Source of the DNA: Alitabrizicola rongguiensis
Lineage (GTDB): Bacteria > Pseudomonadota > Alphaproteobacteria > Rhodobacterales > Rhodobacteraceae
DNA: 64,000 bases
NCBI RefSeq assembly: GCF_021491355.1
Contig: NZ_JAKENF010000002.1
Location: 372,001 to 436,000 of the forward strand
Direction: 5' to 3'
A program made the translations under genes and the position numbers. Positions within the stretch are counted from its first letter, which is position 1, and each line of letters starts with the position of its first letter. Shown piece by piece: positions 1 to 23,551 of this stretch. The notes beneath the pieces are model-generated. The model was not told the DNA's origin and did no database searches. It saw nothing but the letters and a program-made list of their open reading frames with translations.

Positions 1-531
1 CGTGATGCCGGGGTCCTTCAGATCAGCAAACAGCAGTCGCGAGATGCGGTGCATCTGGTCATTGGCCAGCGCGTTCAGCGGATAGACCAGAACGGCCCGA
101 ACCCCGGGGCGCGCCAGATCAGGGTCGCGCAGCAAGCTGTCGACCAGCGGAAACAGGAAGGATTCCGTCTTGCCCGAACCGGTTCCCGTGGCCACCAGAT
201 AGTTTTCTTCCAGCCCGATGGTCGCCGCCTGATGCAGATGCAACGGTCGGTCCATCAGGGCGCGCCCACTGTCGCTGCCCTCTAGCGCCATCCAGCCCTT
301 GTGCAGCCGCCCGTCCTGCACCATCCGGCGGATCGAAGCGCCCTTTTCGAAATCCGGCAGGCTTTCCACAAATGGGCCCTTCACCAGATCGGCCGCCGCA
401 ATCGTTGCCGCCACGCGCTGCGACAAAAGCGGCGCCCGGGCCGCCGAAACCCCCGCGGCAGTCGAGGTATAGCGGGCAAGCGTTTCACGCAGCCGGTCCT
501 TGAACAGTAATGGGTCGAGTTCGTGGGTCAT
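1..531 (-). CDS. DruE-like DEAD/DEAH helicase, N-terminal part (Druantia type III)
   Basis: Partial gene: only the first 177 codons lie in the window; the rest runs off the left edge. Reading the minus strand from the ATG at 531 gives a Q-motif-like stretch (LHLHQAATIGLEENYLVATG), then the Walker A motif GTGSGKTE followed by SFLFPL, then VYPLNALANDQ, which is helicase motif Ia. This is the start of a superfamily 2 helicase of the large DUF1998-type group. Its ATG overlaps the stop of the upstream gene as ATGA, so the two are translationally coupled. An upstream protein of about 1,100 residues plus a very large helicase is the arrangement of Druantia type III (druH-druE). The length and the DUF1998 end cannot be checked here, so a related helicase from another defence system remains possible. 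Confidence 0.6.
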   Translation of the reverse strand, partial: MTHELDPLLFKDRLRETLARYTSTAAGVSAARAPLLSQRVAATIAAADLVKGPFVESLPDFEKGASIRRMVQDGRLHKGWMALEGSDSGRALMDRPLHLHQAATIGLEENYLVATGTGSGKTESFLFPLVDSLLRDPDLARPGVRAVLVYPLNALANDQMHRISRLLFADLKDPGIT

Positions 532-3500
532 GGACGTACCTTGGCCAGCTGCCAGACAAGAAGGAAATAGAAGAACAATTCGGGTGCGAGTCGCAGTAGG
601 AACCCGACGGATGCCAATACATCGCCCGGTCGCCAGCTCAGGGTAGTGGCTAGGGTATCGATGAACTGCCTGGCTGATCCTGTCCGGCTGGCGCGGGCGA
701 ACTCGGAAAGGGTGGCCGCAACGGCCAAATCGATCGCATGAGGACGGTCATCTTCGGGTCGGCGCTTTGGCATGGGCGGGCGCCATACGGGCGGACACTG
801 AGCCAGCACGTGAAGGGCAAGGGTCGACAAGGCTTCCGCGCGCCGGCTGTTGCCGCCGCTCTCGCTCGGTGAATCGAACAACACATTGGCCGCCTCGAAT
901 CTCTCCAGCATGCGTAGCTGTGCGGCCCGCAGATGGGCCGGGCCCATGATCGGTGTGCCATGCCAGAACCATCCCGCTCCGGCATCGGTATCCAGCGGCG
1001 CAAAAAGCTTGAAGAAGCGTTCAGGCCGAAAGCCCGCCAGCACCGTTTCGGCGTTCCGTTCAGCTTCGGTGGCATTAGCAAAGGCAATCAGCGCCTGCGC
1101 ATGCAACAACCCCTCGCGCAGGCGTTCCCGCGAAAACGCACTCAGCATGGAACCTGCTCTCAGCCCATCATCGGTCTGATCGGCCAAAGCATCAAACGCA
1201 GCCGGCAGGGCAGAATACAGCCCGGGATCGATCTCCACCGGGTGCACCATCGGCACCCAGCTTGGCGAAGTTTCCCCCGGCATCGGCAAAAGCGCCGCCC
1301 GCATGAGAAGCCCACTCGATAGGGGCAGGCCTGCTATCATAGCTCCCAGCTTACGCCATCGAGGCAGCAGGCTGCGTTCCAAACCATGGTCCAGCCAGCA
1401 GTCCACCGCATAACAATCCGAAAGCCAGCGGCACAGTGTCTCAAACCGGGTCTGGATGAAATCGACTGGCGCATCAGACAGGCTGTGCGAAGCTGTCAGC
1501 GGCAAGGCATAGGTATCGCCCCTTCCGTTCCGTAGGGGACGCCATCCAAGATCCGGGTTAGCGATGTCTGGCCGCACGAAAATCTTCCCGATCATCAGTC
1601 CTTGATTGGCTGGCTGCTGGGCGATGGTGAGCGTCACGTCGCGGGCGTCAGTGCCAGATAGCTCGGCACGCAGCCACTCGGACGCCGCCCGGCGTACGGG
1701 CCGTCTCCCCAGGGCGATCTCGTGAAAGCTTCGCTTGCCCATCTCGTCCTCGGCCTCGACCGCAACAGCATCAATGGCCGTGCTAATGGCAAAGGTGGCT
1801 TGCACCCCAACCCGGACTAGTCGCAGATCAAACCGCGCGGGCTGAAGTGCGTCTACGACCTCGAACAGCACCACCTCGGCCCCGTTCGACCGTCGCAGCA
1901 CAACTGCAGCGTTCCGCCCCACAAGCTCTGAAATCGCGATATTGCGGGTCATCCCCAATGCAAAAGGCTGGGCTTCGTGCCGCGCCCCAACCCGCAAGGC
2001 CGCCCCGCGATCCGGGCACCGAATCGAGACATGGCCGAACCTATCTTCCGCACCTACGCCAATGCGGGCGCCCAAAGGCACCGGGCTGACTGCCCCATCC
2101 GACCGCAGGCGCTGCAGACTGATGTCGGGCCAAACGAGGTGGAACGGCACGACCTCCCCCTCGATCCCGAAGGCGGCGGTGGCATGAGCGTAGCCCCCCT
2201 TGGGATCAAGCTGCAGGCCGCCCTCAAAGGACGTGACATGCTGGGAATGCGAAGGCAGAAAGTTGGATGGCGCTGCAGAGCAAATCAGGTCCAGCCCCCG
2301 CGCACATTCAAACCCTGGCCAGACAAACGCGCCAAAGGTGATGCCGGCTGACCGCGCTTCCCTGTCGGGCGCCAGAAGTTCCAACCGTAGTCGCGCCGGC
2401 CTCGAGGGAAGGCCGGGCGGCAGGAAATCGGCCAAAGCGCATTCACCAAGGCCCTCTGTCACAGCGACGTCGATCACCGTTTCTACGCCGGCCACGCGCA
2501 TGCGCATGCGCCGAGTTTCGTTGGTCTGCAACCCGGTCTCGACCCTGACCACTGCGTGCGGTCCGAACAGTCGCCCCTGCCGGCCAATGGCGATCACTCC
2601 GCCGGTCAACCCCAAGCGGCGGCGCGGCCGGGTCGCCAGCGTCATGCTTTGTCCGCCGATCCGCAGAACCTTCGGCCTCTGGTCTAGCAATGCGCGCTGC
2701 AGAAAACAGCCGTCGCCAAGGGGCACCGACTCCAGATTGTCCAGCGTAAAGGGGCGCCGCGCTGCAACAAGTGCCTCGGATGTATCCAACATCAGATCGC
2801 GGAGGCCATTGGCCGCACCTTCCCACAGGAACTGGCCAACCGTTAGGTCGAACACAGCAAAGTGGCCGTCATCGGCCAGAAACTCCAGCGCAAAGGGCAT
2901 TCCGTCGATCAGCCCCGACAAACGCTTGGGCCAGGGTTGCTCCAGCGCCCAGTCCTCGCCCCCTTTCAGCCGCAGAGGCCGAGCCGCATCATCCATCTGC
3001 ACGGCGATCCGCCCGTTTGCGCGAGGCAGCCGCAAGGCCAGCCCGTCGGCGTCCCAGACCAGCCGCGGACGGGGCGGAAGGGCCGCGGCCAACCCAACGC
3101 GGGCACGCTCTTTTCCGGCCCGGTCAAAGCATTCGGCAAAGTAACTTTCGAACGGGCTTTTTGCCAGAAATCCAGTCGGATTTGCCGCAACCCGCGCATA
3201 AAGCCGGGCGTGCCAGGCCGTTTCATCCCAAAGGATCGACCGCCGGGGAGTGATGACCGTGGGATGCAGGAACTCCAGCGCATCGTCTTCCCATCGGTTC
3301 AGCAACGTCGAGGAATCCACCGGCGGCGCACCGAACAGGTCATGCTGGCGCTGGAACGCTTCGATAAGCTGCTGCACATGTGCCCGCGGCACCCCCGCAT
3401 GCAGAAGATAAAGGTCCACCATCCGTTCCAGCCCCCGGCTGGGCAAGCCCAGCCTGTCACACAGGGCCAGAAAGCTCCGATGCAAGCCCTCCCTCACCGC

Positions 3501-3812
3501 TGGCGTTCCAAGCCGCACGCCCAGCACATCTTCCAGATGCGCGTAGATGCGCAGGTCATTGCCGCCGTAACTGTCATTCAGCGCATGGGTCACTGCCCAC
3601 CCCGCTAGGTATCCATGCGCGTGGAACAACCCCGGAATGGCTTGTGCCCTGCCACCCAGAAAGGTGCGTACTCGCGAAAGGGCCTCCTCGCGTGATTGCT
3701 CGCTCAGAGAGAGCAGACCAAGGAATGGGGGGGCTTCGGCACGTTTCAGCTGTTGGAAAAGAAGAAAGTCGGATGCTCGACAGTTCACGAAATCACCGCG
3801 TAAAATATTCAT
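528..3812 (-). CDS. DruH-like protein (STY4851/YjiT-like), Druantia type III partner
   Basis: About 1,094 residues with no motif I can name as catalytic. The N-terminal third is helical (an SLSEQSREEALSRVRTFLG region); the middle is rich in short beta stretches; the C-terminal end is hydrophobic (LLRLAPELFFYFLLVWQLAKVRP). Length, position directly upstream of a large helicase gene and the ATGA overlap with it match DruH/YjiT-type proteins, from recall and not from a search. I chose the ATG at 3812 (MNILRGDFVNC); an in-frame GTG at 3842 would add ten residues, and neither has a strong ribosome binding site. Together with the helicase at the left edge it would form a two-gene anti-phage system. 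Nothing in the sequence shows the mechanism. Confidence 0.6.
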   Translation of the reverse strand: MNILRGDFVNCRASDFLLFQQLKRAEAPPFLGLLSLSEQSREEALSRVRTFLGGRAQAIPGLFHAHGYLAGWAVTHALNDSYGGNDLRIYAHLEDVLGVRLGTPAVREGLHRSFLALCDRLGLPSRGLERMVDLYLLHAGVPRAHVQQLIEAFQRQHDLFGAPPVDSSTLLNRWEDDALEFLHPTVITPRRSILWDETAWHARLYARVAANPTGFLAKSPFESYFAECFDRAGKERARVGLAAALPPRPRLVWDADGLALRLPRANGRIAVQMDDAARPLRLKGGEDWALEQPWPKRLSGLIDGMPFALEFLADDGHFAVFDLTVGQFLWEGAANGLRDLMLDTSEALVAARRPFTLDNLESVPLGDGCFLQRALLDQRPKVLRIGGQSMTLATRPRRRLGLTGGVIAIGRQGRLFGPHAVVRVETGLQTNETRRMRMRVAGVETVIDVAVTEGLGECALADFLPPGLPSRPARLRLELLAPDREARSAGITFGAFVWPGFECARGLDLICSAAPSNFLPSHSQHVTSFEGGLQLDPKGGYAHATAAFGIEGEVVPFHLVWPDISLQRLRSDGAVSPVPLGARIGVGAEDRFGHVSIRCPDRGAALRVGARHEAQPFALGMTRNIAISELVGRNAAVVLRRSNGAEVVLFEVVDALQPARFDLRLVRVGVQATFAISTAIDAVAVEAEDEMGKRSFHEIALGRRPVRRAASEWLRAELSGTDARDVTLTIAQQPANQGLMIGKIFVRPDIANPDLGWRPLRNGRGDTYALPLTASHSLSDAPVDFIQTRFETLCRWLSDCYAVDCWLDHGLERSLLPRWRKLGAMIAGLPLSSGLLMRAALLPMPGETSPSWVPMVHPVEIDPGLYSALPAAFDALADQTDDGLRAGSMLSAFSRERLREGLLHAQALIAFANATEAERNAETVLAGFRPERFFKLFAPLDTDAGAGWFWHGTPIMGPAHLRAAQLRMLERFEAANVLFDSPSESGGNSRRAEALSTLALHVLAQCPPVWRPPMPKRRPEDDRPHAIDLAVAATLSEFARASRTGSARQFIDTLATTLSWRPGDVLASVGFLLRLAPELFFYFLLVWQLAKVRP

Positions 3813-3943
3813 CTTTGTCAGATCGTTGCGCACAATCTGCACAACTTCAAGGCAATATCTGCTGCTTTATACTTCGCCCTCTGGATTAGAACCCTTCTGA
3901 AATAGTCCGCGCTCGACCTTCTCTGCAGAACATAATTCAACCT

Positions 3944-7883: not shown

Positions 7884-11186
<3,303 letters not shown>

Positions 11187-11471: not shown

Positions 11472-14261
11472 TCACACATCCATCCGCATCTGACCGCTGC
11501 GGTTCGTCAGCGGCGCGGTGGCGGCTTCACGGGTCAGGTCCGTCCAGTCCGCGATCAGCGCGTTGTAGGCGGTCGCCTCCTTCGCGTCGCCCCGCTTTTC
11601 GCAGATGTTGTAAAGCACATAGGCCAGGTCGCGCACGTCATCCGCCTTGGAGCCGAACTTCTTCAGCATCACCGCCGCCTCATAGCCGATCCCGTATTTC
11701 TCGTGCAGACGCACCAGATGCTGGCAGCATTCCCAGACGGTCAGGTGGCCATCGGCATCCGGCTCCCACTCGGCATCCATCTCGTCGCGCTTCAGGATGC
11801 GCACCTTTCCGGCCGCGCTTTCCACGATCCCGGCATGCTTCACGCTTTCGACCGAGATGCCGCGCGCGGTGGCGATGTTGTTCGCTGTGCCATAGTCGCC
11901 AGCCTTCAGCCCGTTCTGTTCGAACCAGGTGATGGCAAAGCGGGTGTCGGCATCGAACTCGCCCTGGATGCCGCCAAGGTATTCGTCGAGCTCGCGGTTG
12001 ATCAGCTGCAGCGCGGCCTTCACCGTCATCGGGCTGTCATCGGATTCCAGCACCGCCCTGTAGCGCGAGAAGACGCCCATGCCGGGGCCAATGGCCGATT
12101 GCGGCATGTCGGCCGGGGCAATGTTGGCAGCCTGAAGCTCGGCGATGGCCGGTGGCAATTCGCGTTTCAGGGCACGGATGAACTCGGCCCGGGTGATGAC
12201 CTCGGCTGAGGCTTCCTTTTTGCGGCAGACGAGGACGACGGAGTTTGCGAGGGCGTTACTCTCCTGCCCCCTCATTCGGTTCGCAAGTTCTGTTCGCATC
12301 GGCCAAGTACTTACGACTGAATACCCGGCATCTAGAATCCCCTGCAGGAACGTCGCCCAACCAGTTGAACTAATCCCTTCGTTCGCGACCTCACTTTGTT
12401 TGAAAGCATAGTAGATCGCCGCAGGAAAAACATTGGCGGACTGGTGAGCCATGTTCGCGATTGCTCTGCGCATCCCGTCCAGAAAGAAAACTTCGGCTGC
12501 GTCCCTCCCGCCTTGCCGGTGGGGCGCAGCAATCAATTCCTCTGCCTTCGGAGTAGCCAATACACTGAAGATATCAGGATATACTGATCGGAGGGCTGGC
12601 TTTAGCCAACAAAAGAAGAAATCTGACAGATCAGCGTAGCCTATATTGTCATAGTATGGTGGATCAGTAGAAATTACCGCTCCTTCGGGGTAGACAACGG
12701 TTTGAGCGTCGTGGTTGATCTCAATACCTTCGCCACTGGGGTGAAATCGCTCAATCACCTTAACGATGCTTCCAAGACTAGTCCGGTAGTCTCCCGCAGC
12801 ATCGCAAAAGACGTTGTTTTCGCCAAAGTCCCACATCATGGGAATAGCCTGACGACCGAAAAGGTTTCGGACCTGTGTTTTCGACGATTCCCATCTGCAA
12901 AGTGAGTTTTGAATGTCAGTCAATCTGCTGACGCCAAACGCCAAATACACACTAACTGCCTCGGCATAGGCTTTGGCGCCTTTGCCACCGTCGCGCAGCA
13001 CGGTGGGATCGGCGGAAAGGGTCGCGGATGCGTTGGCCTCAATCTGTGACCGCGCCTCATGCACAAGATCGCTGAAGGTGTTTAACGCCACTAGCTGCCG
13101 ATCGGTGAAAAGATCACCGAAGGTCTCCATTCCATAATCTGGAGGAGTGAACGCGCGGCGATCAGGCGAAATCGTCATCTCTGGCCGCCATGAGGGCTTC
13201 GCAGCGCGGGCGGCTTCGACCTGTTCGGCGATTGGAGCAACAAAAATCCGCTCTCGCGGACCTTCTGCAACAATTGCGATAAGTTGCTCTCCCAAGCCAT
13301 CCTTTGCAACACGCCGAACGTGTTCCATTGTGATCGCGGTATCCGAGATCAGGCAGCGGAAGTTTGCCCCGCGCCCGGCCTTCGTTCCCTCTTTAGCCGC
13401 CTCAAGCTCGGCTTTCGTCCCACCCTGCCGGATACGATAGGTGATCGTCTTGGCCTGCCGGTCAACGATAGGCTCGATCCATGCCTCTTTCCCGGCTTTG
13501 GACGACAGAAGGAAGCTCGACGCAATCGGCACATGGACATCCGCAAAGGCCGGGTCGGGGCTCGGCACCGTCCGCGCCCAGATCCAGGCGATCACCGTTG
13601 CCTTGCCGCCACCATACTCCTTCGGCAGGTCCACTTGCGGGTAAAGATGCCCGATGCGCTCCCATGCCTTCTCGCGCATCCATTCGCCGTAGTATTTCAC
13701 ATCCTCGGCCAGCCCTTCGGCGTTGCGGTAGAACGACCGCTCCTTGATGCCGGGGTGGATGGGAGGCATGTCCTTGAACTTCGGCGGGATCTCGATCATC
13801 GCCTTACCGATCATCACCGCCACCGGGTTCAGGTCGGACCCATAGGCAGGCAGGCCCAGCCGCTGCGCCTCGAGCGGGATCGATCCGCCGCCCGAGAACG
13901 GGTCATAGACCGGCGGCAGCACTCCACCGCACGACCGCCGGATTTCCGCCCGCGCGCGTTCCAGCACCTCTTCGTTGGTCGAGTTCTCCCACTTCACCAG
14001 GTCTTCGATGATGGCAAACAGCCGCTGCCGCTCGCGCTCCTGATCCTCATGGGCGGGGAACTGGTCGGGGTGACTCGAGGGATCGTCCACCAGCTGCGCA
14101 AAGAGCACCGCCCGACACGCCGCCAACGGCCGCCGCGCCCACCACAGATGCAGCGTGCTGGGATGCCCATGCCGGATCGACTTCTCCCGCGCCGAGGCGG
14201 CGTTGATGGCCTCAAGCGGGATGGCGACTTCGATCAGTTTCTTCTTGTAGGGTTGGGTCAT
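11472..14261 (-). CDS. DUF1156 DNA methyltransferase
   Basis: 929 residues. DUF1156 proteins open with a conserved IEVAIP-type stretch and the motif HLWWARRPLAACRA (residues 38-51), both present. The AdoMet-binding motif is DPFSGGGSIPLEAQRLG (from 120). The amino-methyltransferase catalytic motif is DPPYYDN at about 533-539, followed by IGYADLSDFF. The predicted activity is N6-adenine or N4-cytosine methylation of DNA, marking self in a modification-dependent defence system. The ATG at 14261 overlaps the stop of the upstream nuclease-like gene as ATGA. It is the modification arm of the operon. The partner ATPase and helicase genes flank it and no type I-style specificity subunit is present, so target recognition must lie in this protein or its partners. 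Confidence 0.85.
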   Translation of the reverse strand: MTQPYKKKLIEVAIPLEAINAASAREKSIRHGHPSTLHLWWARRPLAACRAVLFAQLVDDPSSHPDQFPAHEDQERERQRLFAIIEDLVKWENSTNEEVLERARAEIRRSCGGVLPPVYDPFSGGGSIPLEAQRLGLPAYGSDLNPVAVMIGKAMIEIPPKFKDMPPIHPGIKERSFYRNAEGLAEDVKYYGEWMREKAWERIGHLYPQVDLPKEYGGGKATVIAWIWARTVPSPDPAFADVHVPIASSFLLSSKAGKEAWIEPIVDRQAKTITYRIRQGGTKAELEAAKEGTKAGRGANFRCLISDTAITMEHVRRVAKDGLGEQLIAIVAEGPRERIFVAPIAEQVEAARAAKPSWRPEMTISPDRRAFTPPDYGMETFGDLFTDRQLVALNTFSDLVHEARSQIEANASATLSADPTVLRDGGKGAKAYAEAVSVYLAFGVSRLTDIQNSLCRWESSKTQVRNLFGRQAIPMMWDFGENNVFCDAAGDYRTSLGSIVKVIERFHPSGEGIEINHDAQTVVYPEGAVISTDPPYYDNIGYADLSDFFFCWLKPALRSVYPDIFSVLATPKAEELIAAPHRQGGRDAAEVFFLDGMRRAIANMAHQSANVFPAAIYYAFKQSEVANEGISSTGWATFLQGILDAGYSVVSTWPMRTELANRMRGQESNALANSVVLVCRKKEASAEVITRAEFIRALKRELPPAIAELQAANIAPADMPQSAIGPGMGVFSRYRAVLESDDSPMTVKAALQLINRELDEYLGGIQGEFDADTRFAITWFEQNGLKAGDYGTANNIATARGISVESVKHAGIVESAAGKVRILKRDEMDAEWEPDADGHLTVWECCQHLVRLHEKYGIGYEAAVMLKKFGSKADDVRDLAYVLYNICEKRGDAKEATAYNALIADWTDLTREAATAPLTNRSGQMRMDV

Positions 14262-15085
14262 ATTTGAACAACGATTCTTCTGATTGCCGCACGAAAGTCA
14301 TCACGAACGCCGGGCGGCACTTGGTCCAACAGCAGCTGGTTGATTGCCTGGTGATCCGCATCGCTGCGGGTCGGATAAAGCTGGAACTCCCACGTGCGCC
14401 AGTCACCACTGTCGGGTGCTGTAATCACTCCGACGCCGTTCTTTCCAGCAACTCCCAAAAGATTTTCGAAATCTGCCTGTTGGTCTTCGGTAAGTTGCGC
14501 CGGAAAGCCGACGATCAAGAGGTACGCGTAGTGCGATCTCGCCTTGTGTGACAAGGCTTCATAGACGGCGAGGACATCTGTGACCTCGAAACGCTTCACT
14601 TCAATCGTGCGCACGTCTCCTTCCGGGCGCGACGAGAACAACCAGTCCGAAACGGTGCAAAGGACGATGTCTGGCCGACTCCATCGGCCTCCCGTCTGTC
14701 TACGACCTTGTTGTCCAGTGATAGCTCCGAAGACATGGGTGAACCCGGGCTGCTCTGTCCAGTTATTCAGGATTTCCCTAAGCACCGGCTCATAATGGTC
14801 AATCTCTCGATCCTGTTCCATCACTTCCGCTGCTTGTTGCGGTTGCGCTGCAGGCACAACCTCAACAGCTACCTCAGCTGGTGGCAGAAGCTGAATCCCA
14901 CCGTTCCGTCCCCTTCTCCGCTCAATTCGACCCTCGTCCACGAGGGACTGTTCAGCTTCCCAGTATGCATCGGTTGGACTGCCATCGAGGCCGGGAATAG
15001 TCATCCACAGGCTATTCCGGGTAAGTCGTTGGTTTCCGGCCTGTTGAAGCGCCGCGATTATCTGATCACGCATGTTTTCGACCAC
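14258..15085 (-). CDS. Winged-helix / PD-(D/E)XK nuclease-like protein
   Basis: 275 residues. Residues 5-65 look like a winged helix (MRDQIIAALQQAG, then a basic RIERRRGRNGG wing). The C-terminal half has RPDIVLC (Asp139) and TIEVKRFE (Glu162, Lys164), spaced as in a PD-(D/E)XK nuclease core, followed by a helical segment. It could be the cleaving subunit of the operon, or a catalytically retained DNA-binding subunit. The GTG at 15085 is preferred because AGGA lies four bases upstream; the ATG at 15073 has no ribosome binding site. The gene is 19 bases after the helicase gene and overlaps the methylase start by four bases. I do not know a standard name for it in this system. Confidence 0.65.
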   Translation of the reverse strand: MVENMRDQIIAALQQAGNQRLTRNSLWMTIPGLDGSPTDAYWEAEQSLVDEGRIERRRGRNGGIQLLPPAEVAVEVVPAAQPQQAAEVMEQDREIDHYEPVLREILNNWTEQPGFTHVFGAITGQQGRRQTGGRWSRPDIVLCTVSDWLFSSRPEGDVRTIEVKRFEVTDVLAVYEALSHKARSHYAYLLIVGFPAQLTEDQQADFENLLGVAGKNGVGVITAPDSGDWRTWEFQLYPTRSDADHQAINQLLLDQVPPGVRDDFRAAIRRIVVQI

Positions 15086-15104
15086 TAAGTCCTGTGTTTC
15101 TGCT

Positions 15105-18100
15105 CTACTTCGGTTGCTCAGCTCGTTCCAACAGGCGCTTTAGGTTGAACTGGATCGCCGTATGTTCGAACGACGGTTCGTGGTCCGACAGCGCACCGCG
15201 CACATACCGCGGTTCTTGCGCATAGCCACGCTCGATCTGGACGATGGCCAGGATGTATTTCCCGGGTTCATGCAGCGAAGTGATGATTTCCTGCCGGGTC
15301 AGCATCACCGTGTCGGCGCCGTCGATCCGACCCTTGACCTCGATGAAACGCAGATGCCCAGAGCGAGGATCGTAAGAGGCGATGTCGTAGCCAACCTTTT
15401 GCGCCGAAACATCGCGCGGCTCATTGCCCAGCGCCCGCTCTGCCTTGATGACCGCTTCCATGGCCCTCAACTCGCTGATCCTCCGGGCCTCCGGGTCTTC
15501 AGCAAACGCATTGGGTTTGGTGCCTGCAACGACAGCCGCCTTCGCCAACAGCAGCCCCTTGGGCACGACGACCATGCCCCCGCGCACCCGCGGCGGCTGT
15601 GCCGAGATGAAGCGCTCCTTCTCCAGAAGTTCCATCCGGCGTTTCAGTCGATCGGCCAGGTCTTCCGCACGCCGTTCTGCGTTCTGCCAGTTCAGGCGGG
15701 TCTTTTTTCCGGCCTTCTCATCCTCGCGCAATTCGGCGGCCCGGTTGTCCCAGAAGTTGATCTCCTTCTTCAGGCGAGCCTTTACCTCCTGCTCGACCTT
15801 CGCCACCTCCGGCAGACGCCGCGCCTTCACCTCGGCCACGTGGCTCTGCGCGAGATCAATCGTAGCGAAGCGGATGGCGGCCTTTTCCAGATCATTACGC
15901 AGCCAGTCCTCGTGCAGCTTGTCAGAAACCAGCACGATTTCCTCAGCCGTAGCGGGGCGCAGGTTCAGGTGCGGGGCGATCCCCGCATTCGCGGCTTGCC
16001 CTGTCTTGTCGATCGAGGCGAACTGCAGCTTCTCCGAAATGATGTGGGGTTTGCCAGTGCTGGTTGGGCGGCCGTCCTGAACGCTGTGCTCCAACAGGAA
16101 GATCGCGGACAGGTCCTGGCCAGGGTCGGTTTCATCAACCATGACCGCGCCCTGTTTCATCAGGTGGTCGTACTGTTCGCGCACGATGCTGATGACGGCT
16201 TCCAACAAAGGGTGGCCAGGACAGACGAACGTTGCCACTGGCTGCTGATTCACTTTTCCCTTCTCAAAGCAGATGCGCTCGTACTTTTTCTGGACTGGAG
16301 AACCGGTCCCGATCTGCCTGTCGCGCTCGCGGATGCTGACCGGGACATGGGTGATTTCCCACCGGCCCTCTTCCCGAGGCTTGATCTGGCCGCCGAGGCG
16401 CCTAAACGCCTCGACGAAGAAACTCTGGATGTGATGCGGCTGGAGGCGCTGAGCCTCGGCGCGTTCCATGTCGATGCGGATTTCCTGCACTTTGGCGGCA
16501 GGCATCGTATCGTTGGTCAGCGCCCGGCGGGCCAAAAGATCAAGGAGGTGCCGCTGATCGACGGCACCATCGACGGCTTGGAACAGCCGGGCCTTCACTT
16601 CGGGCTGCTCACCGTACTGGATCGCCTCGAACAACAGATCCTTCAGCGCCGTCCCGTCGAACAACTCGCCGAGGACATCGTAGACTCGCCCACCCAGCGC
16701 CTCGCGCGCGGCCTCCAGCTTTTCTAGGAGCCGGGCATAGACCTCACCTTCGCGCGTGTCGGCCGCGACAAGGTTCCAGAGGTGGCAGACCTCGGTCTGA
16801 CCGATGCGGTGAATACGGCCAAACCGCTGTTCGATCTTGTTCGGGTTCCAGGGGAGGTCGTAGTTCACCATAAGATGGCCACGCTGAAGGTTCACGCCTT
16901 CACCAGCCGCGTCGTTCGCGATCAGTACCAGCATGTCACGGTCCTGCATGAACCGCTCGACGATCTTCCGCCGATCCTCGCGCGACACGCCGCCATGGAT
17001 CACCTCGACAGCATCGGCACGACCGAGCCTCGAGCGCACGCGGTCATGTAGGTAATAAAGGGTGTCTTTGGGTTCGGTGAAAATGATCAGCTTCCGGCGA
17101 TTGCCGTGGGAATCGACCATCAGTTCGTCGTCGAGGATCCGGTTGAGCTGCGACCACTTCGTGTCCTGCCCGGAACTGAGCACCCCGAGCGCCATCCGTT
17201 CAAGGGTTTGCAATGCTTCGACCTCAAGCGCGAGCTGATCCACGGTCTCAGCCGTTGTCGCCGTCGTGGAAATCCGGTCCTCAATGTCGTCGATCTCGTC
17301 CTGGCCAAATTCCTCGATGTTCTGCAACACATCGTCTGGCACGTCGGGCGCGTCGAAACCAGAGCGCTTGCCGCGAACCATCAGCCTTGCCTCGGCCAAT
17401 TCTGCCTCCAACCGTTCGCGGCGCCGCTTCAAGGACTGGTAGATCGCGGCTGGGGACGAAGCCAGACGACGCTGCAGGATCTGCAATGCGAAGCCGACAT
17501 TGTTCCGCTTCTTGCCATCCTCTGCAGCAAAGCGCTGGACCCGGTTCATTTCGTTGCGGACATATTCGGTCACCGCCGCGTAGAGCGCCGCCTCGTCTGC
17601 CGACAAATCATACTTGACGGTATAGGCTCGGCGTTCGGGAAAAAGCGGGCGGCCATCAAACCGCAGGAGCTCTTCTTTGGTGAGGCGGCGCATCATGTCA
17701 GCGGTGTCAGCATAATGCACACCGTCGCGGAACCGACCCTCGAAACGGTCACCGTCGAGCAGCGCCATGAACAATTGGAAATCCTGTTCATGCCCATTGT
17801 GGGGCGTTGCCGACATCAGCAGCAGATGACGGCACACTTCGCCGAGCTTCTGACCAACGCGGTATCGCTTGGTGTACTTAGCTTCACCACCAAAATAGGT
17901 CGCGGACATGCGGTGGGCTTCGTCACAGATAATCAGGTCCCACTCAGCCGCTTTCGCCAGCTTGACCTGCAGTTCCTCATTGCGGGCGAGGACGTCCAGT
18001 CGGGCAATCAACCGGTTGTGATCGCTGAACGGATTACCCGACCTTGAGTTCTCGATCATGTCGCGGGTCAGGATGTTGAACTCTAACCCGAACTTCTCGC

Positions 18101-18614
18101 CCAGTTCATCCTGCCACTGTTCGACGAGACTTCCAGGCGCAACGACTAGACAGCGTTCAAGATCACTCCGGGCGATCAATTCCTTGATCAGCAGGCCCGC
18201 CATGATGGTTTTCCCGGCACCCGGATCGTCAGCCAAGAGAAACCGCAACGGCTGGCGGGGCAGCATTTCACCATAAACCGCAGAAATCTGGTGCGGAAGC
18301 GGATCAACTAGGCTGGTATGAATGGCGAGGTAAGGATCGAAATAATGCGCCAGCTTGATGCGATTAGCCTCGGTGACAAGACGCAAGAGATTGCCGTCTG
18401 CATCAAACGACCAGACTCGTCCATGAGCATCGAGTTCAATTCGGGCCTGATCATCGCGATAAAGGGTCGTTTCAGAAACACCACCACCCGGCGCTCTGAA
18501 TACCAGATTGATCGCTTGATCTCCAATCCATTCAACAGAAACGACCTCGACTGGCTGGCCGGGAACGACACCGCGCAATTGAGCGCCGTTCTTGATGTCT
18601 TCCAGAACCGTCAT
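15105..18614 (-). CDS. SNF2-type helicase with C-terminal DUF3883-like domain
   Basis: 1,169 residues. Motifs in order: Walker A DDPGAGKT (129-136), DEAH (231-234), SATPHNG (268-274), and near residue 600 the motif VI stretch EQRFGRIHRIGQ. These define an SNF2-like superfamily 2 ATPase, which moves along double-stranded DNA. A long coiled, charged region follows. The end carries YDIASYDPRSGHLRFIEVKG, the DUF3883 signature, which resembles a nuclease-fold core. It is the first gene of the five-gene operon and is preceded by about 430 bases of non-coding DNA with clustered GAAC/GTTC tetramers. The likely role is translocation and recognition of unmodified invading DNA. Similar helicases occur in DISARM (DrmD), but the partner genes here point to the DUF499/DUF1156 system. 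Confidence 0.85.
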   Translation of the reverse strand: MTVLEDIKNGAQLRGVVPGQPVEVVSVEWIGDQAINLVFRAPGGGVSETTLYRDDQARIELDAHGRVWSFDADGNLLRLVTEANRIKLAHYFDPYLAIHTSLVDPLPHQISAVYGEMLPRQPLRFLLADDPGAGKTIMAGLLIKELIARSDLERCLVVAPGSLVEQWQDELGEKFGLEFNILTRDMIENSRSGNPFSDHNRLIARLDVLARNEELQVKLAKAAEWDLIICDEAHRMSATYFGGEAKYTKRYRVGQKLGEVCRHLLLMSATPHNGHEQDFQLFMALLDGDRFEGRFRDGVHYADTADMMRRLTKEELLRFDGRPLFPERRAYTVKYDLSADEAALYAAVTEYVRNEMNRVQRFAAEDGKKRNNVGFALQILQRRLASSPAAIYQSLKRRRERLEAELAEARLMVRGKRSGFDAPDVPDDVLQNIEEFGQDEIDDIEDRISTTATTAETVDQLALEVEALQTLERMALGVLSSGQDTKWSQLNRILDDELMVDSHGNRRKLIIFTEPKDTLYYLHDRVRSRLGRADAVEVIHGGVSREDRRKIVERFMQDRDMLVLIANDAAGEGVNLQRGHLMVNYDLPWNPNKIEQRFGRIHRIGQTEVCHLWNLVAADTREGEVYARLLEKLEAAREALGGRVYDVLGELFDGTALKDLLFEAIQYGEQPEVKARLFQAVDGAVDQRHLLDLLARRALTNDTMPAAKVQEIRIDMERAEAQRLQPHHIQSFFVEAFRRLGGQIKPREEGRWEITHVPVSIRERDRQIGTGSPVQKKYERICFEKGKVNQQPVATFVCPGHPLLEAVISIVREQYDHLMKQGAVMVDETDPGQDLSAIFLLEHSVQDGRPTSTGKPHIISEKLQFASIDKTGQAANAGIAPHLNLRPATAEEIVLVSDKLHEDWLRNDLEKAAIRFATIDLAQSHVAEVKARRLPEVAKVEQEVKARLKKEINFWDNRAAELREDEKAGKKTRLNWQNAERRAEDLADRLKRRMELLEKERFISAQPPRVRGGMVVVPKGLLLAKAAVVAGTKPNAFAEDPEARRISELRAMEAVIKAERALGNEPRDVSAQKVGYDIASYDPRSGHLRFIEVKGRIDGADTVMLTRQEIITSLHEPGKYILAIVQIERGYAQEPRYVRGALSDHEPSFEHTAIQFNLKRLLERAEQPK

Positions 18615-19046: not shown

Positions 19047-20585
19047 CTACCTGTCTCGCCACCCGTGCCAAAGAAGGCGACCAAGCTGCCTTGCTCCTGC
19101 TCCTGCCCGGCCGACTTCAACCAGCACTCCACTTACTTCCGACCTCCCTTCGAGCCTGCGGCGGTTGCGCTGGACCATAAGCGCCTCTCCGGCCTCCTGC
19201 GCGATGAGCGTCTCGAGTTGGCCGATGTTCCAGACTGGCGTCTCACATGAAATAGGCAAGACGATGGGTTCTCCAAGATCTGCCGAAACGGCCCGCACCA
19301 CTTCGGCTAGCTTCGCTAGTGCCTCCGGCGGCAACAGGTGTTCGGCCCAGGGCCAACCTTCAAGTAAGTTGTCCACTGCATTTACAGCGACGATGACGCG
19401 AGGTCGGCGGCGTGCAAAATCGCTGGCGAAGCTCTCCCGAAAACGCGACAGCAGCGCAAGGTCGGGAGCCCGTGCCGGCCGGTTGGCACGAACGACCCAT
19501 AAGACCAGATCGCATTGCATTAACTGTTCGAGAAGCCGTTCCTCGACCATGTCGGAACCATCGATCCCCTCGCTGTCAACGAAAGTGAATCCGATCCCTG
19601 ACAATTCGATCTGATGACTGACAAGTCCCTGAGTGGTCGGCACGACGTCTGTTTCCGCCATATCACACCCAGACAAAGCATTGATAAGGCTTGTTTTCCC
19701 AGCGCTCACTTGACCAACGACCATAACCCGCAACGGCGCATCCACTTCGGGCTCGCGTGCCAGATCTCTGCGATGCGATTCCAGTTCAATCTCGAGAAGC
19801 TCAGCATCCGAAAACCGCAGATGGCCTGCGTGCAGGTCAATTGCAGCGCGGGCGACTTCCTCAAGGATCAGCCTTTGCAGGCTTGTTTCGGCGGTATTTT
19901 GAATTGCGCCTGTTGCCTCACCCAAGAGAATGTTTTGTATCTCCTGCAGAATTGCGACCGGCAGGTTGGCGACAAGTCGCTTCATGCGCCATGCATTTTG
20001 GGCAATGTATGCACCGCGCCGGAACCAAATTCGATTGGACCAGAACCAGACCAAAGTACTAATGCGTATCGTATCGGCCATTGGCACATAGCTGCGCATG
20101 TCCCCGCGCAACCGGGTCGCGACCTGGTCGAATAGCAAGAGTGCCTCGGGAATCGAGAAATCCAGAGCGGTACGTGTTCCACCTGAAAGCTCTCCGGCCG
20201 CGCGACCAACGACATCGATCGCCTGCCTTTGCAGGTCGCCCCAAGGCAATGGTGCGATGAGTTGATCCCGGATGTCAGAACTCAGGCGCAGGAAGACCTC
20301 AAGCTCCCGATCCGTCCAATCCGGGTTTGCCTTGACCAGAGGCGATGAGTTACCGGGGGTCGCGCGAGCGGCGCGCCTAGCCCAGCGTGACATCGCCCAC
20401 AGAGCGAGCCGGGAGATGCCGATCACCGCGACAGTCGCTAGAACGAAGCGCAGCAGCCAACCCTTTTCAGCCAACCAAAGGAAGCCAAGAGCAACCAAGA
20501 CGACGAGCGGCATGAGATAGAGCAGGATTCCCAGCAACACCCGGCCCCTGAGAAACAGCGACAGGATCTTCCTATGCGGGGTCAT
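19047..20585 (-). CDS. Membrane-anchored Era/TrmE-like GTPase, third gene of a GTPase operon
   Basis: 512 residues from the ATG at 20585 (MTPHRKILSLFLRG), which overlaps the preceding gene by 14 bases; a start at 20654 would overlap by 83 and is unlikely. Two adjacent membrane segments lie at about residues 14-60 (LLGILLYLMPLVVLVALGF and LLRFVLATVAVIGISRLALW). A helical cytoplasmic region follows, then a GTPase domain: G1 GQVSAGKTS (291-299), G3 VDSEG (336-340), G4 NAVD (402-405), and a G5-like LPISCET. Unlike most bacterial GTPases, the G domain is at the C-terminal end, after the membrane anchor. It would sit on the inner face of the membrane. Its neighbours are a second, different membrane GTPase and a small membrane protein. 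The process is unknown. Confidence 0.75.
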   Translation of the reverse strand: MTPHRKILSLFLRGRVLLGILLYLMPLVVLVALGFLWLAEKGWLLRFVLATVAVIGISRLALWAMSRWARRAARATPGNSSPLVKANPDWTDRELEVFLRLSSDIRDQLIAPLPWGDLQRQAIDVVGRAAGELSGGTRTALDFSIPEALLLFDQVATRLRGDMRSYVPMADTIRISTLVWFWSNRIWFRRGAYIAQNAWRMKRLVANLPVAILQEIQNILLGEATGAIQNTAETSLQRLILEEVARAAIDLHAGHLRFSDAELLEIELESHRRDLAREPEVDAPLRVMVVGQVSAGKTSLINALSGCDMAETDVVPTTQGLVSHQIELSGIGFTFVDSEGIDGSDMVEERLLEQLMQCDLVLWVVRANRPARAPDLALLSRFRESFASDFARRRPRVIVAVNAVDNLLEGWPWAEHLLPPEALAKLAEVVRAVSADLGEPIVLPISCETPVWNIGQLETLIAQEAGEALMVQRNRRRLEGRSEVSGVLVEVGRAGAGARQLGRLLWHGWRDR

Positions 20586-22476
20586 GCGCGGCCCCACGCA
20601 TTGCATCGGAGAAGCGGCGCCGAAGTTCCGCTTCGTCAATCGGGTTACCCTCACGAAGATGATAAAACCACCAAGCTGCTACCCGACCAAGGGCCCAGGT
20701 TGACGTGAAACCCCAAGTAGCGCCCGCGACTGGGGCAACAGTCTGGCCAATTACCGGCACCAGTTTAGCCCCCTCACGAGCGGCAAAGGCCAGGGCTTGG
20801 CCACCCAATACGCCAGCGCCGAGGGCTGCACCAAGCTGTGCCAGTCGGCTCGCGCTCCACTCAACTCCGTAGCGACCTGCCAATGCCGACAGCATCGCAA
20901 CCTGAAGAGTAGGTACAGACGCCGCGCCGACCAAAGGGAGTGCTCCAGCAGCGGTAGCGCTGCCTGCGTAACCTAGCACCAACGCCCGGTTCCGCCCAAA
21001 CTCCGAGCCTTCCTCGTCCGAGGAAGTCTCGCCCGCCAAGAACATCACAACCGAAGGCAGTATCTCGACAAGTTCTTTCGAAAACGGCTCCAAATCGGCC
21101 TTAACGGGATTGGAGAGGTCAAGCGTGACCATTGGCAAGTTTGCTCCAAAAACCGACTCGATGGCTTTCTGGTTGTGGGCCTGCGCTCTGCCCCGTGCCG
21201 ACACATCGGAAATAAGGTCTGCCCCTGTGTGAATCACGATGACCGGCTGCTTGCGGCTCACCTTGCGAATGCGGCGCAAGGCCTCGACGATTGCGCCCTG
21301 CACCGGATCGTCAAGCCGCATCACGACCAAAACTACGTTCGCTGTAGTCTGGATCTCGGCAAGATCGGCGGCAGGATCGTAGTCGATCTCGCCAAGGCCC
21401 CTTGTGTCAAGAAATCGCATCACGGGTTCGTTCGGCGGAAAATCAAAGGACCGCGCCGTACGCGTGCAAGGATTGAACCCATTTCCAATCGCCGCCCCAT
21501 CTAGGCGGGTCAGCGCCTGAACTAGCGAGCTCTTGCCTGCTCCTGTCTTTCCGAGCAACCAGAGCGTTGGCACCGGAAGGCACGTTTCGCCGACAGCTTT
21601 CGGACTTGGCCTGTCGTCGGGCGAGGCGGACCAGATCCAGTCTTTTGCTTCGTTCCAGAGCGCCTTTGGTGCATCGACGACGGCCCCTGCGGCATCGGAA
21701 ACCGCACCCCAAAACCGCCACCCATTTTCGTCGGCAAACACTCGGCCTACCTCAGCGATGCTGGCTTTTTCGATTGAGTTAACATGGCCGTCAACCTCGG
21801 CGATTTCCGTCAGAAAGCGGAGGACCTCGGCCGACATCGCGTCGTAGTCGCAATCAGGATTCTGTCGCTTGTATGAAGACAGTGCTTTCGCTGCTTCCGT
21901 GATTGATCTGCCACTGATGCTTTCTTCAATGATGGGCAGTGCTGCGTCGATGTAGTCGGGCGCTATCCCCCATTCGCTGGTGAAGTACTCCGCAATCGCG
22001 CCAAGTTCGGCTTGATCGAGCGCGCCAGCCTCTCGCTGGATCAGGACTGATAGCCCCGCAATCAAGTCGAACAGTGAAGCGGCCAAAAGATCGATTGGGG
22101 TGTTTATGAATTTGGGCACGGCTTCGACCCGGGATCCTGAGTAGCTCCGCCAAGCCCTCATGACACCCCAGCTGATCGCACCAGCCATCGTGGCCGCCCC
22201 AATTACCCAACCAACCGGCGTAACCGCCGTGCCTATTCCGATCGCAGTGAGCCATGTGCCGAAGAAAGTGGAAGCGACAGTCGATGAACCTGCGACGACT
22301 GCTCCGGCTGCAGCTGCAGAACCGACCTGCCAGAGATCGCCGACAGTGCGCCCGGCTGTCAAACTCAGATAAGCATCCTCTCCGATGCCAAGCTTGGCCT
22401 TGAAGCGAAGTGGATCTGCGACGACTCGCGCGACTCTATCAAAACCGACCGGGCGGGCGGCCCCATCCGCTTCCAT
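20572..22476 (-). CDS. GTPase with TerB-like and DUF697-like membrane regions
   Basis: 634 residues from the ATG at 22476 (MEADGAARPVGF), which shares one base with the upstream stop (TAATG). Order: a glycine- and alanine-rich hydrophobic region (about 50-105); a helical TerB-like region (about 122-247) with ITEIAEVDGH-like text; a GTPase domain with G1 GKTGAGKS (309-316), G3 DTRGLG (357-362) and a G4 position that reads HTGAD (416-420) instead of NKxD; then a long hydrophobic C-terminus (about 490-600) of DUF697 type with repeated glycines. TerB domains are acidic helical bundles at the inner membrane in stress and defence gene sets. The missing G4 lysine suggests altered nucleotide specificity. 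It is probably the core of the three-gene system. Confidence 0.75.
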   Translation of the reverse strand: MEADGAARPVGFDRVARVVADPLRFKAKLGIGEDAYLSLTAGRTVGDLWQVGSAAAAGAVVAGSSTVASTFFGTWLTAIGIGTAVTPVGWVIGAATMAGAISWGVMRAWRSYSGSRVEAVPKFINTPIDLLAASLFDLIAGLSVLIQREAGALDQAELGAIAEYFTSEWGIAPDYIDAALPIIEESISGRSITEAAKALSSYKRQNPDCDYDAMSAEVLRFLTEIAEVDGHVNSIEKASIAEVGRVFADENGWRFWGAVSDAAGAVVDAPKALWNEAKDWIWSASPDDRPSPKAVGETCLPVPTLWLLGKTGAGKSSLVQALTRLDGAAIGNGFNPCTRTARSFDFPPNEPVMRFLDTRGLGEIDYDPAADLAEIQTTANVVLVVMRLDDPVQGAIVEALRRIRKVSRKQPVIVIHTGADLISDVSARGRAQAHNQKAIESVFGANLPMVTLDLSNPVKADLEPFSKELVEILPSVVMFLAGETSSDEEGSEFGRNRALVLGYAGSATAAGALPLVGAASVPTLQVAMLSALAGRYGVEWSASRLAQLGAALGAGVLGGQALAFAAREGAKLVPVIGQTVAPVAGATWGFTSTWALGRVAAWWFYHLREGNPIDEAELRRRFSDAMRGAAHDPA

Positions 22477-22904
22477 TAGGCCCCGACCCGAGCAAGCCGA
22501 GCCTCGAGCTCGTTGATCCGCGAGGTCCAACTCGCGTTGGCAAAATCGGCGATAGCCCCTCGTGTCAAGCCGAAGGCGACAAGCAGTGGCATCAAGAAAG
22601 CAGACAAGGTCGCGCCAATAAATGGGATCGAGGCAACGAGCAGTCCGACAGCTACCGAGATCACGACGCCGAACACCGTGTTTGGAAAGCGCGCCAAGAT
22701 TTCGAACACGACCGTCAGGATCTTGCGGCCGATCTGCAGGACCACGTCACCAACCGCCACGGTGACGCGCGCAAGATCCATGACAAGTGATTTTACATCA
22801 GCGGAAAGCGCTAACCTGTCGATCTGGTCGGAAATCTTGCGCAACGGTAGTGCTGCATTGATCTCGCGCAAATTCTCAACATCGACTTTTGGAACATTAG
22901 ACAT
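22476..22904 (-). CDS. Small membrane protein, first gene of the GTPase operon
   Basis: 142 residues. The N-terminal half is amphipathic (INAALPLRKISDQIDRLAL, then DVVLQIGRKILTVVFEILA). The C-terminal half has one or two membrane spans (VFGVVISVAVGLLVASIPFI, then LSAFLMPLLVAFGL) and ends in a short charged helix (SRINELEARLARVGA). AGGG lies seven bases upstream of the ATG at 22904. Its stop overlaps the next start (TAATG), so the stoichiometry with the GTPase is probably set by coupling. I do not recognise the family. It may be the membrane partner or effector of the two GTPases. Confidence 0.65.
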   Translation of the reverse strand: MSNVPKVDVENLREINAALPLRKISDQIDRLALSADVKSLVMDLARVTVAVGDVVLQIGRKILTVVFEILARFPNTVFGVVISVAVGLLVASIPFIGATLSAFLMPLLVAFGLTRGAIADFANASWTSRINELEARLARVGA

Positions 22905-23509: not shown

Positions 23510-23551
23510 ACGGATTTGCAATCCGCTGCGTAACCTCTCCGCCAACCCGCC
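23510..23551 (-). pseudogene. Truncated tRNA-Cys(GCA), 5' half only
   Basis: Reading the minus strand from 23551: acceptor strand GGCGGGT, a D-arm (GGCGGAGAGGTTACGC), then the anticodon arm GCGGA-TTGCAAA-TCCGT with anticodon GCA. Directly after the anticodon stem the sequence turns AT-rich, and there is no variable loop, T-arm or 3' acceptor strand. Integrases often cross over in the anticodon arm or T-arm of tRNA genes, so the break at this point suggests an attachment site whose far half was lost or lies outside the window. It cannot be a working tRNA as it stands. Confidence 0.6.

Follow-up and report, generated by a model that had tools for sequence, protein, structure and literature searches.

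A stretch of 64,000 nucleotides from Alitabrizicola rongguiensis (Rhodobacteraceae; contig NZ_JAKENF010000002.1, positions 372,001 to 436,000), here called the window, carries at positions 19047-22904 three genes, A, B and C, which read as a single minus-strand operon (Table 1). Genes A and B meet at a TAATG junction with one base in common (position 22476), and B and C overlap by 14 bases when gene C is started at ATG 20585. The longest open reading frame of gene C would begin at GTG 20654; this start was set aside, as many homologues begin at the 14-base overlap. Homologous loci were surveyed in the best 80 named loci of at least 568 confirmed, and the ATG is preferred because the identical overlap with an ATG start recurs in 35 of the 70 named loci in which it was measurable. 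The three are considered real genes because their homologues give long alignments. An initial annotation, made from the letters of the window alone, had described the genes as coupled into one unit, and the junctions and common strand agree with this. It had also called the first gene product a 142-residue membrane protein, which fits the clear hydrophobic stretch at residues 69-114 (a second one, at 40-58, is marginal). Likewise, the N-terminal membrane anchor and C-terminal G domain assigned to the second GTPase were recovered in protein C: residues 6-49 are clearly hydrophobic, and the structural model places the G domain at 285-444, after about 280 mostly helical residues.

Two modules joined in gene B

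Two units that spread independently, BN and BC, are fused in gene B. The whole protein was searched against 195 related genomes, its own included; strong matches span about the first 260 or about the last 350 residues, never both outside its own genome. Related loci resolve into two units, one in which gene A is followed by a TerB-bearing gene (BN) and one in which a GTPase gene (BC) is followed by C. The operon can thus be read as A and BN joined to BC and C. The pairing of BC with C is nearly constant. Strong BC matches and full-length C (E below 1e-160) are found in the same seven of the 195 genomes, a count that sets aside weaker BC matches in eight more genomes (E 1e-6 to 1e-3) and short G-domain matches of C in all genomes. 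Throughout the best 80 loci, a C match lies directly downstream of BC and starts within about 320 bases, yet at L072 most of C is on the opposite strand. Homologues of gene A are present in 8 of the 195 genomes, all within the ten that hold BN, and A adjoins BN in 13 of 16 unfused BN loci. On a plasmid of Paracoccus versutus, about 1.2 kb interrupts BN, and the adjoining gene A is still an open frame (L029:11516-13931).

The spread of both units is patchy. Among 394 family genomes searched at E 1e-15, 15 contain BC and 16 contain BN; apart from G000, the two occur together only in G020, which encodes them separately. Most often, BC-C lacks the A/TerB module (75 of the best 80 loci), and the complete BN-BC fusion with C occurs in the other five, namely L048 and L049 (Gemmobacter), L051 and L068 (metagenome-assembled genomes of Rhodobacteraceae) and L052 (Thioclava). 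Gene A accompanies four of these five; it was not found in L052. In a tree of 45 BC sequences, the five named fused loci and the window form one clade (support 100/98). Nested inside it is L050, where no BN was found, probably through loss of the A/TerB module. A different fusion occurs in G466, where the TerB part alone (33% identity to window residues 104-254) is joined to BC in a protein of about 558 amino acids; no gene A was detected there, and the protein is placed elsewhere on the tree. The starred branches of the tree require at least two changes of fused state. The natural forms are A+BN, BC+C, A+BN-BC+C and TerB-BC+C.

Homologues of BC are distributed across Pseudomonadota and three other phyla, the latter in metagenome-assembled genomes. 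Close sequences across phyla suggest horizontal transfer. For example, L119 lies near L097 and L127 (100/100, short branches) despite their different phyla; these are metagenome-assembled genomes, in which mis-binning is possible. The neighbourhoods of the GTPase pair are variable, the commonest other protein cluster being present in 20 of the 80 loci at scattered positions. A conserved third neighbour was sought in these loci and none was found beyond local synteny, as in Photobacterium.

Table 1 Features of the operon and of the island around it in the window
Feature	Position	Strand	Basis
Gene A (142 aa, small membrane protein; partner of BN)	22476..22904	minus	Open reading frame, hydrophobicity, homologues
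Gene B, 634 aa; fusion protein BN-BC	20572..22476	minus	Relatives mostly encode the halves as separate genes
BN half of gene B (aa 1-262); stretches of weak hydrophobicity, helical TerB-like domain at aa 140-247	21691..22476	minus	
BC half of gene B (aa 285-634); G domain and DUF697-like helical tail	20575..21624	minus	
BC motifs: GKTGAGKS at aa 309, DTRG at aa 357, HTGAD at aa 416			
Gene C, 512 aa; membrane helices at the N-terminus, a helical middle part and a G domain at the C-terminus	19047..20585	minus	
Gene C motifs: GQVSAGKT at aa 291, NAVD at aa 402			
Right end of the island: a 42-base segment of tRNA-Cys in exact copy	23510..23551	none	Repeat count in relatives
HmaA helicase, HMA candidate defence system	15105..18614	minus	PADLOC HmaA, 1584 bits
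275-aa gene inside the HMA operon, between HmaA and HmaB	14258..15085	minus	No significant family (Pfam, PADLOC, NCBIfam)
HmaB methylase	11472..14261	minus	PADLOC HmaB, 1226 bits
HmaC ATPase with Swt1-like HEPN domain	7884..11186	minus	PADLOC HmaC, 941 bits; PF18731

Resemblance to known GTPases and systems

The AlphaFold2 model of protein B (mean pLDDT 78; residues 33-90 poorly predicted) comprises TerB-like helices (about residues 127-250), a G domain starting at 304 and a helical tail. In the PDB, IRG proteins are its best fold matches; the first 15 also include EHD and a bacterial dynamin pair. The first Foldseek hit, an IRG, has a TM-score of 0.41 on the target and an rmsd of 15; with TM-scores near 0.4 or lower, an overall fold shared with IRG proteins is not established. 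The BC profile finds IF-2 first, slightly ahead of IRG proteins. A search of solved structures with the TerB half gave nothing useful.

The initial annotation had described protein B as a TerB-like domain, a G domain and DUF697-like hydrophobic ends. The G domain is clear (PF01926 at 307-415). TerB falls slightly under the Pfam threshold in the window protein and is matched at E 0.01 in 16 of the 54 members of the gene B family alignment (best 8.8e-14); 44 of the 54 rows include the GTPase half. The hydrophobic stretches are weak (about 54-97, 123-142, 498-517 and 545-563). At E 0.01, DUF697 matches 26 of the 54 members, AIG1 21 and IIGP 4; none of the three matches the window protein at this threshold, so that "DUF697-like" describes the family.

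The two GTPases are not equivalent in their G4 motif. The lysine of N/TKxD is missing from BC in all 44 aligned rows and the aspartate is kept in 25 of them, whereas the G4 aspartate of C is kept in 53 of 53 rows. The G3 motif of BC is DTRG in 44 of the 45 rows counted. Judged from these motifs, BC may have changed its use of nucleotides. Protein C is nearest in profile to EngA/Der and MnmE/TrmE. The best folds for its model are chains of pre-60S ribosome particles, probably Nog1, at TM-scores near 0.26, which give little information beyond the G domain.

As a named system, the operon is absent from the models of PADLOC, Pfam and NCBIfam, in agreement with the earlier statement that no named anti-phage system is known to have this set of genes. 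The proteins were also considered as known defence genes and rejected as such, since no PADLOC-DB 2.0.0 model matched any of them over most of its length. Among the open-licence papers listed, judged by titles and the beginnings of abstracts, none described an operon with TerB and a DUF697 GTPase, and among the matches listed on YcjX/YcjF and bacterial IRG relatives there was none showing such an operon. Several known systems are nonetheless comparable in part. IRG proteins (Irga6/IIGP1, Irgb10, GM4951) head the fold matches of the B model and rank high in the BC profile, and through IIGP and AIG1 the IRG and GIMAP/AIG1 groups are matched by part of the gene B family; unlike them, BC is bacterial, is paired with C, has DTRG as G3 and is without the G4 lysine. 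YcjX/YcjF (DUF463/DUF697) is a two-protein membrane unit with a P-loop protein, and DUF697 is matched by part of the gene B family. Here, however, a single protein combines the G domain with the DUF697-like tail and has another GTPase as its partner, and DUF463 has no match in A, B or C at E up to 1.

LeoA/LeoBC, which we take to be the anti-phage system Eleos, is likewise a set of GTPases, and its PADLOC models match in part (LeoBC to B at E 4.5e-13, LeoA to C at E 1.3e-7). The best stretches cover about 100 of 559-601 profile positions, in the G domain alone, and the sizes differ. LeoA/LeoBC proteins have an N-terminal G domain followed by a stalk, in contrast to protein C with its C-terminal G domain. 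The TerB domain is frequent in stress and defence operons and poorly understood. Shango has a TerB protein, SngA, and thus also combines this domain with a defence setting; this operon, in contrast, has no ATPase/helicase partner of its own, and none of the four PADLOC families matching gene B (E up to 1) is Shango. DynA of Bacillus subtilis, a membrane GTPase reported in PMC8844932 to help keep the membrane intact and to postpone lysis in phage-infected cells, is a precedent for slower lysis through such a protein. DynA is a single dynamin, whereas this operon encodes two GTPases, neither a full-length dynamin, together with a TerB module.

Genomic setting of the operon and its relatives

A 52.9-kb island at tRNA-Cys, with a G+C content of 0.605 compared to 0.63-0.65 in the flanks, carries the operon as its last cargo. 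Comparison with relatives puts the right edge of the island just past gene A. In the alignment with G003, the right flank is shared from 23434 onward; on the other side, the alignment starts again 29 kb outside the left end of the window, where the tRNA-Cys lies beside a phage-integrase-family gene. Among the stretches read, the 42-base part of tRNA-Cys has two copies here, two in G003 and one in each of G001 and G002; the stretches of G005-G008 contain none. Between its two copies, G003 holds a different, shorter insert of about 6.7 kb (L139:7438-14176), and the site thus resembles a hot-spot of integration. Among the 195 genomes searched, the six others of the same genus gave no match to protein B.

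The placement of the operon between a HEPN/methylase operon and the island edge, as first proposed, was confirmed. The former is HMA, a candidate system named in PMC8565338. The island also holds ZacABC defence genes (L146:6522-12616; PADLOC up to 1067 bits) about 26-33 kb left of the operon. Ahead of them lie a gene of 862 aa and a UvrD-type gene of 1052 aa, both with homologues beside the unfused A-BN unit of L038; a homologue of the 1052-aa helicase is found at the fused locus L052 as well. Another helicase of the island, a 957-aa UvrD protein, has homologues after the unfused GTPase pair in Psychromonas (L088:13450-15813, L106:13372-15807). Two very large genes lie side by side on the island, one of 1104 aa (528-3842) and one of 1979 aa (between a point 5.4 kb outside the window's left end and position 531); the 1104-aa protein had no match in Pfam (E 0.01) or PADLOC (E 1e-5).

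A mobile or defence-type setting was recognized in five of the six loci of the fused clade, the copy in the window among them, L051 being too short to judge. L048 lies beside RepB and ParA-type plasmid genes and a WYL regulator, L049 beside a DEAD/UvrD helicase and a ZorB-like MotB protein, and L052 beside WYL and a protein like PDC-M55C/HEC-05; L068 has a phage-type integrase nearby. At L049, the ZorB-like MotB/OmpA protein belongs to a four-gene set next to the operon (12872-18452), which may be an unclassified Zorya-like system. Homologues of the WYL gene of the island accompany two of the five fused and none of the 75 unfused named loci.

The neighbours of the GTPase pair were scanned at 34 alphaproteobacterial loci of the best 80, picked from record titles; the other 46, mostly gammaproteobacterial, lay outside the scan. 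On each side, the nearest genes of 100 aa or more were chosen, two at most. Of the 122 genes chosen, 2 partial ones were dropped and 120, from 33 loci, were scanned (16 at five fused loci and 104 at 28 unfused loci). As a control, 18 regions of related genomes were placed at positions fixed before reading, and 120 of their 144 genes, those of the first 15 regions, were scanned. At E 1e-20, the target genes matched mad3 four times, WYL twice, mREase_II once and other families singly, among 25 of 36 families listed, so that up to 11 further single, weaker matches are possible. Identical E-values indicate that the DpdF, PsyrT, C3a193, GajB and RTasHel matches are one L049 protein and that the WYL matches are those of L048 and L052, both fused loci. 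In the control, mad3 was matched five times and four families once each (ShosA twice, GlgB-like C3a214, PsyrA). On this comparison, the unfused pair has no clear defence enrichment. Among 118 neighbours of 16 unfused BN loci, GajA and GajB were matched, probably as one Gabija locus, and mad3 in five (25 of 48 families listed).

Candidate functions

A tentative preference is given to a membrane-integrity hetero-GTPase pair that is triggered through the A/TerB module and was recruited by defence islands in the fused clade. It would consist of two modules, A with the TerB-bearing half of B, and BC with C as a membrane GTPase hetero-pair. C would be anchored by its N-terminal helices, BC would be associated with the membrane by way of its tail, and together they would make up a hetero-assembly that depends on GTP and lies on the inner membrane. 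Linked to BC through the fusion, the A/TerB module would sense disturbance of the envelope and turn on the assembly, which would then stabilize or remodel the membrane. In the fused clade, this stress device would have been picked up by islands and plasmids with anti-phage genes, where it would probably limit membrane damage during phage attack. A role of the operon in phage defence is plausible; the physical complex, the sensing, the membrane protection and the anti-phage benefit are all what we infer. The BC/C pairing, the 14-base overlap, the fusion with its repeated changes of state and the membrane stretches support a membrane hetero-pair with a TerB module, and the mobile or defence-type settings of the fused clade support recruitment by defence islands. 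The IRG, EHD and dynamin-pair folds matched by the B model and the AIG1 and IIGP matches in its family also count in favour.

Several observations weigh against this proposal. At the level of single proteins, the IRG likeness of B depends on TM-scores near 0.4, and its TerB match reaches 24.1 bits, just below the gathering score of 24.4. The unfused modules occur together no more often than by chance (one genome, G020, against about 0.5 expected by hand arithmetic). BC and C are 11-12 kb apart in four plasmid-labelled Vibrio records; a fifth such record has them adjacent. As to defence, the fused sample is small and includes the too-short L051, and the fusion in G466 lies among metabolic-looking genes, judged from the proteins without a family search. 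The WYL contrast has an exact chance of 10/3160, about 0.003, calculated by hand for a test picked after the data were seen. Around the 28 unfused alphaproteobacterial loci, there was no clear excess of PADLOC matches over random regions; this corresponds to half of what the initial annotation had itself named as refuting. Its view of a defence-island operon thus stands for the copy in the window, on an island with HMA and ZacABC, and finds no support at these unfused loci. Finally, none of 24 viral-contig stretches matching a BC pattern was confirmed, and protein B had no match in phage genomes. A phage origin of the operon was rejected on these grounds; BN gave one viral contig.

In a Vibrio vulnificus record (L027:7352-21005), an RNA 2'-phosphotransferase gene lies in the gap of about 11 kb between C and BC, with recombinase genes close by.

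The main rival, a plain GTPase pair for membrane homeostasis or envelope stress with no defence role, whose place on the island is hitch-hiking, is a serious possibility. YcjX/YcjF and Psp-linked proteins are models for such a function. The lack of clear defence enrichment at the 28 unfused loci, the mostly metabolic commonest neighbour families (first 25 of 159 listed), the DUF697 matches of the family and the spread over several phyla all favour it. It accounts less well for the fused clade, with its island, plasmid-type or defence-type DNA and, among the best 80 loci, sole association with the island WYL gene. The variable neighbourhoods also fit a mobile accessory better than a core gene. 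Abortive infection, which the initial annotation had suggested as an alternative to membrane surveillance and in which the pair would damage the membrane or halt growth once the A/TerB module senses infection, is distinctly unlikely. Membrane proteins on a defence-carrying island and the conserved gene coupling would suit it, but Pfam, PADLOC and NCBIfam revealed no toxin domain (AbiGi at E 0.02 only), and the unfused pair has no clear defence setting in the loci tested. Moreover, an uncontrolled toxin pair would be harmful, and BC-C is commoner without the A/TerB module, which L050 seems to have lost. That the operon is a distant member of the dynamin-like LeoA/LeoBC group is very improbable, as the partial matches between these two GTPase sets are confined to the G domain and the domain order of C differs.

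A bolder reading, considered rather unlikely, would make the operon a bacterial immune device in which an IRG/GIMAP-like GTPase needs a second membrane GTPase, with which it forms an obligate hetero-pair, and in which a fused TerB sensor provides the switch. In the way it works, and perhaps in its descent, it would then be the prokaryotic counterpart of a group of proteins, the interferon-inducible GTPases, whose targets are membranes that bear pathogens.

If the proposal of a membrane-integrity pair is true, a widespread and unnamed membrane GTPase pair gains its first testable role, and the fusion links this pair to a TerB module. The natural split, fused and reduced forms would serve as ready-made constructs for assigning functions to the modules.

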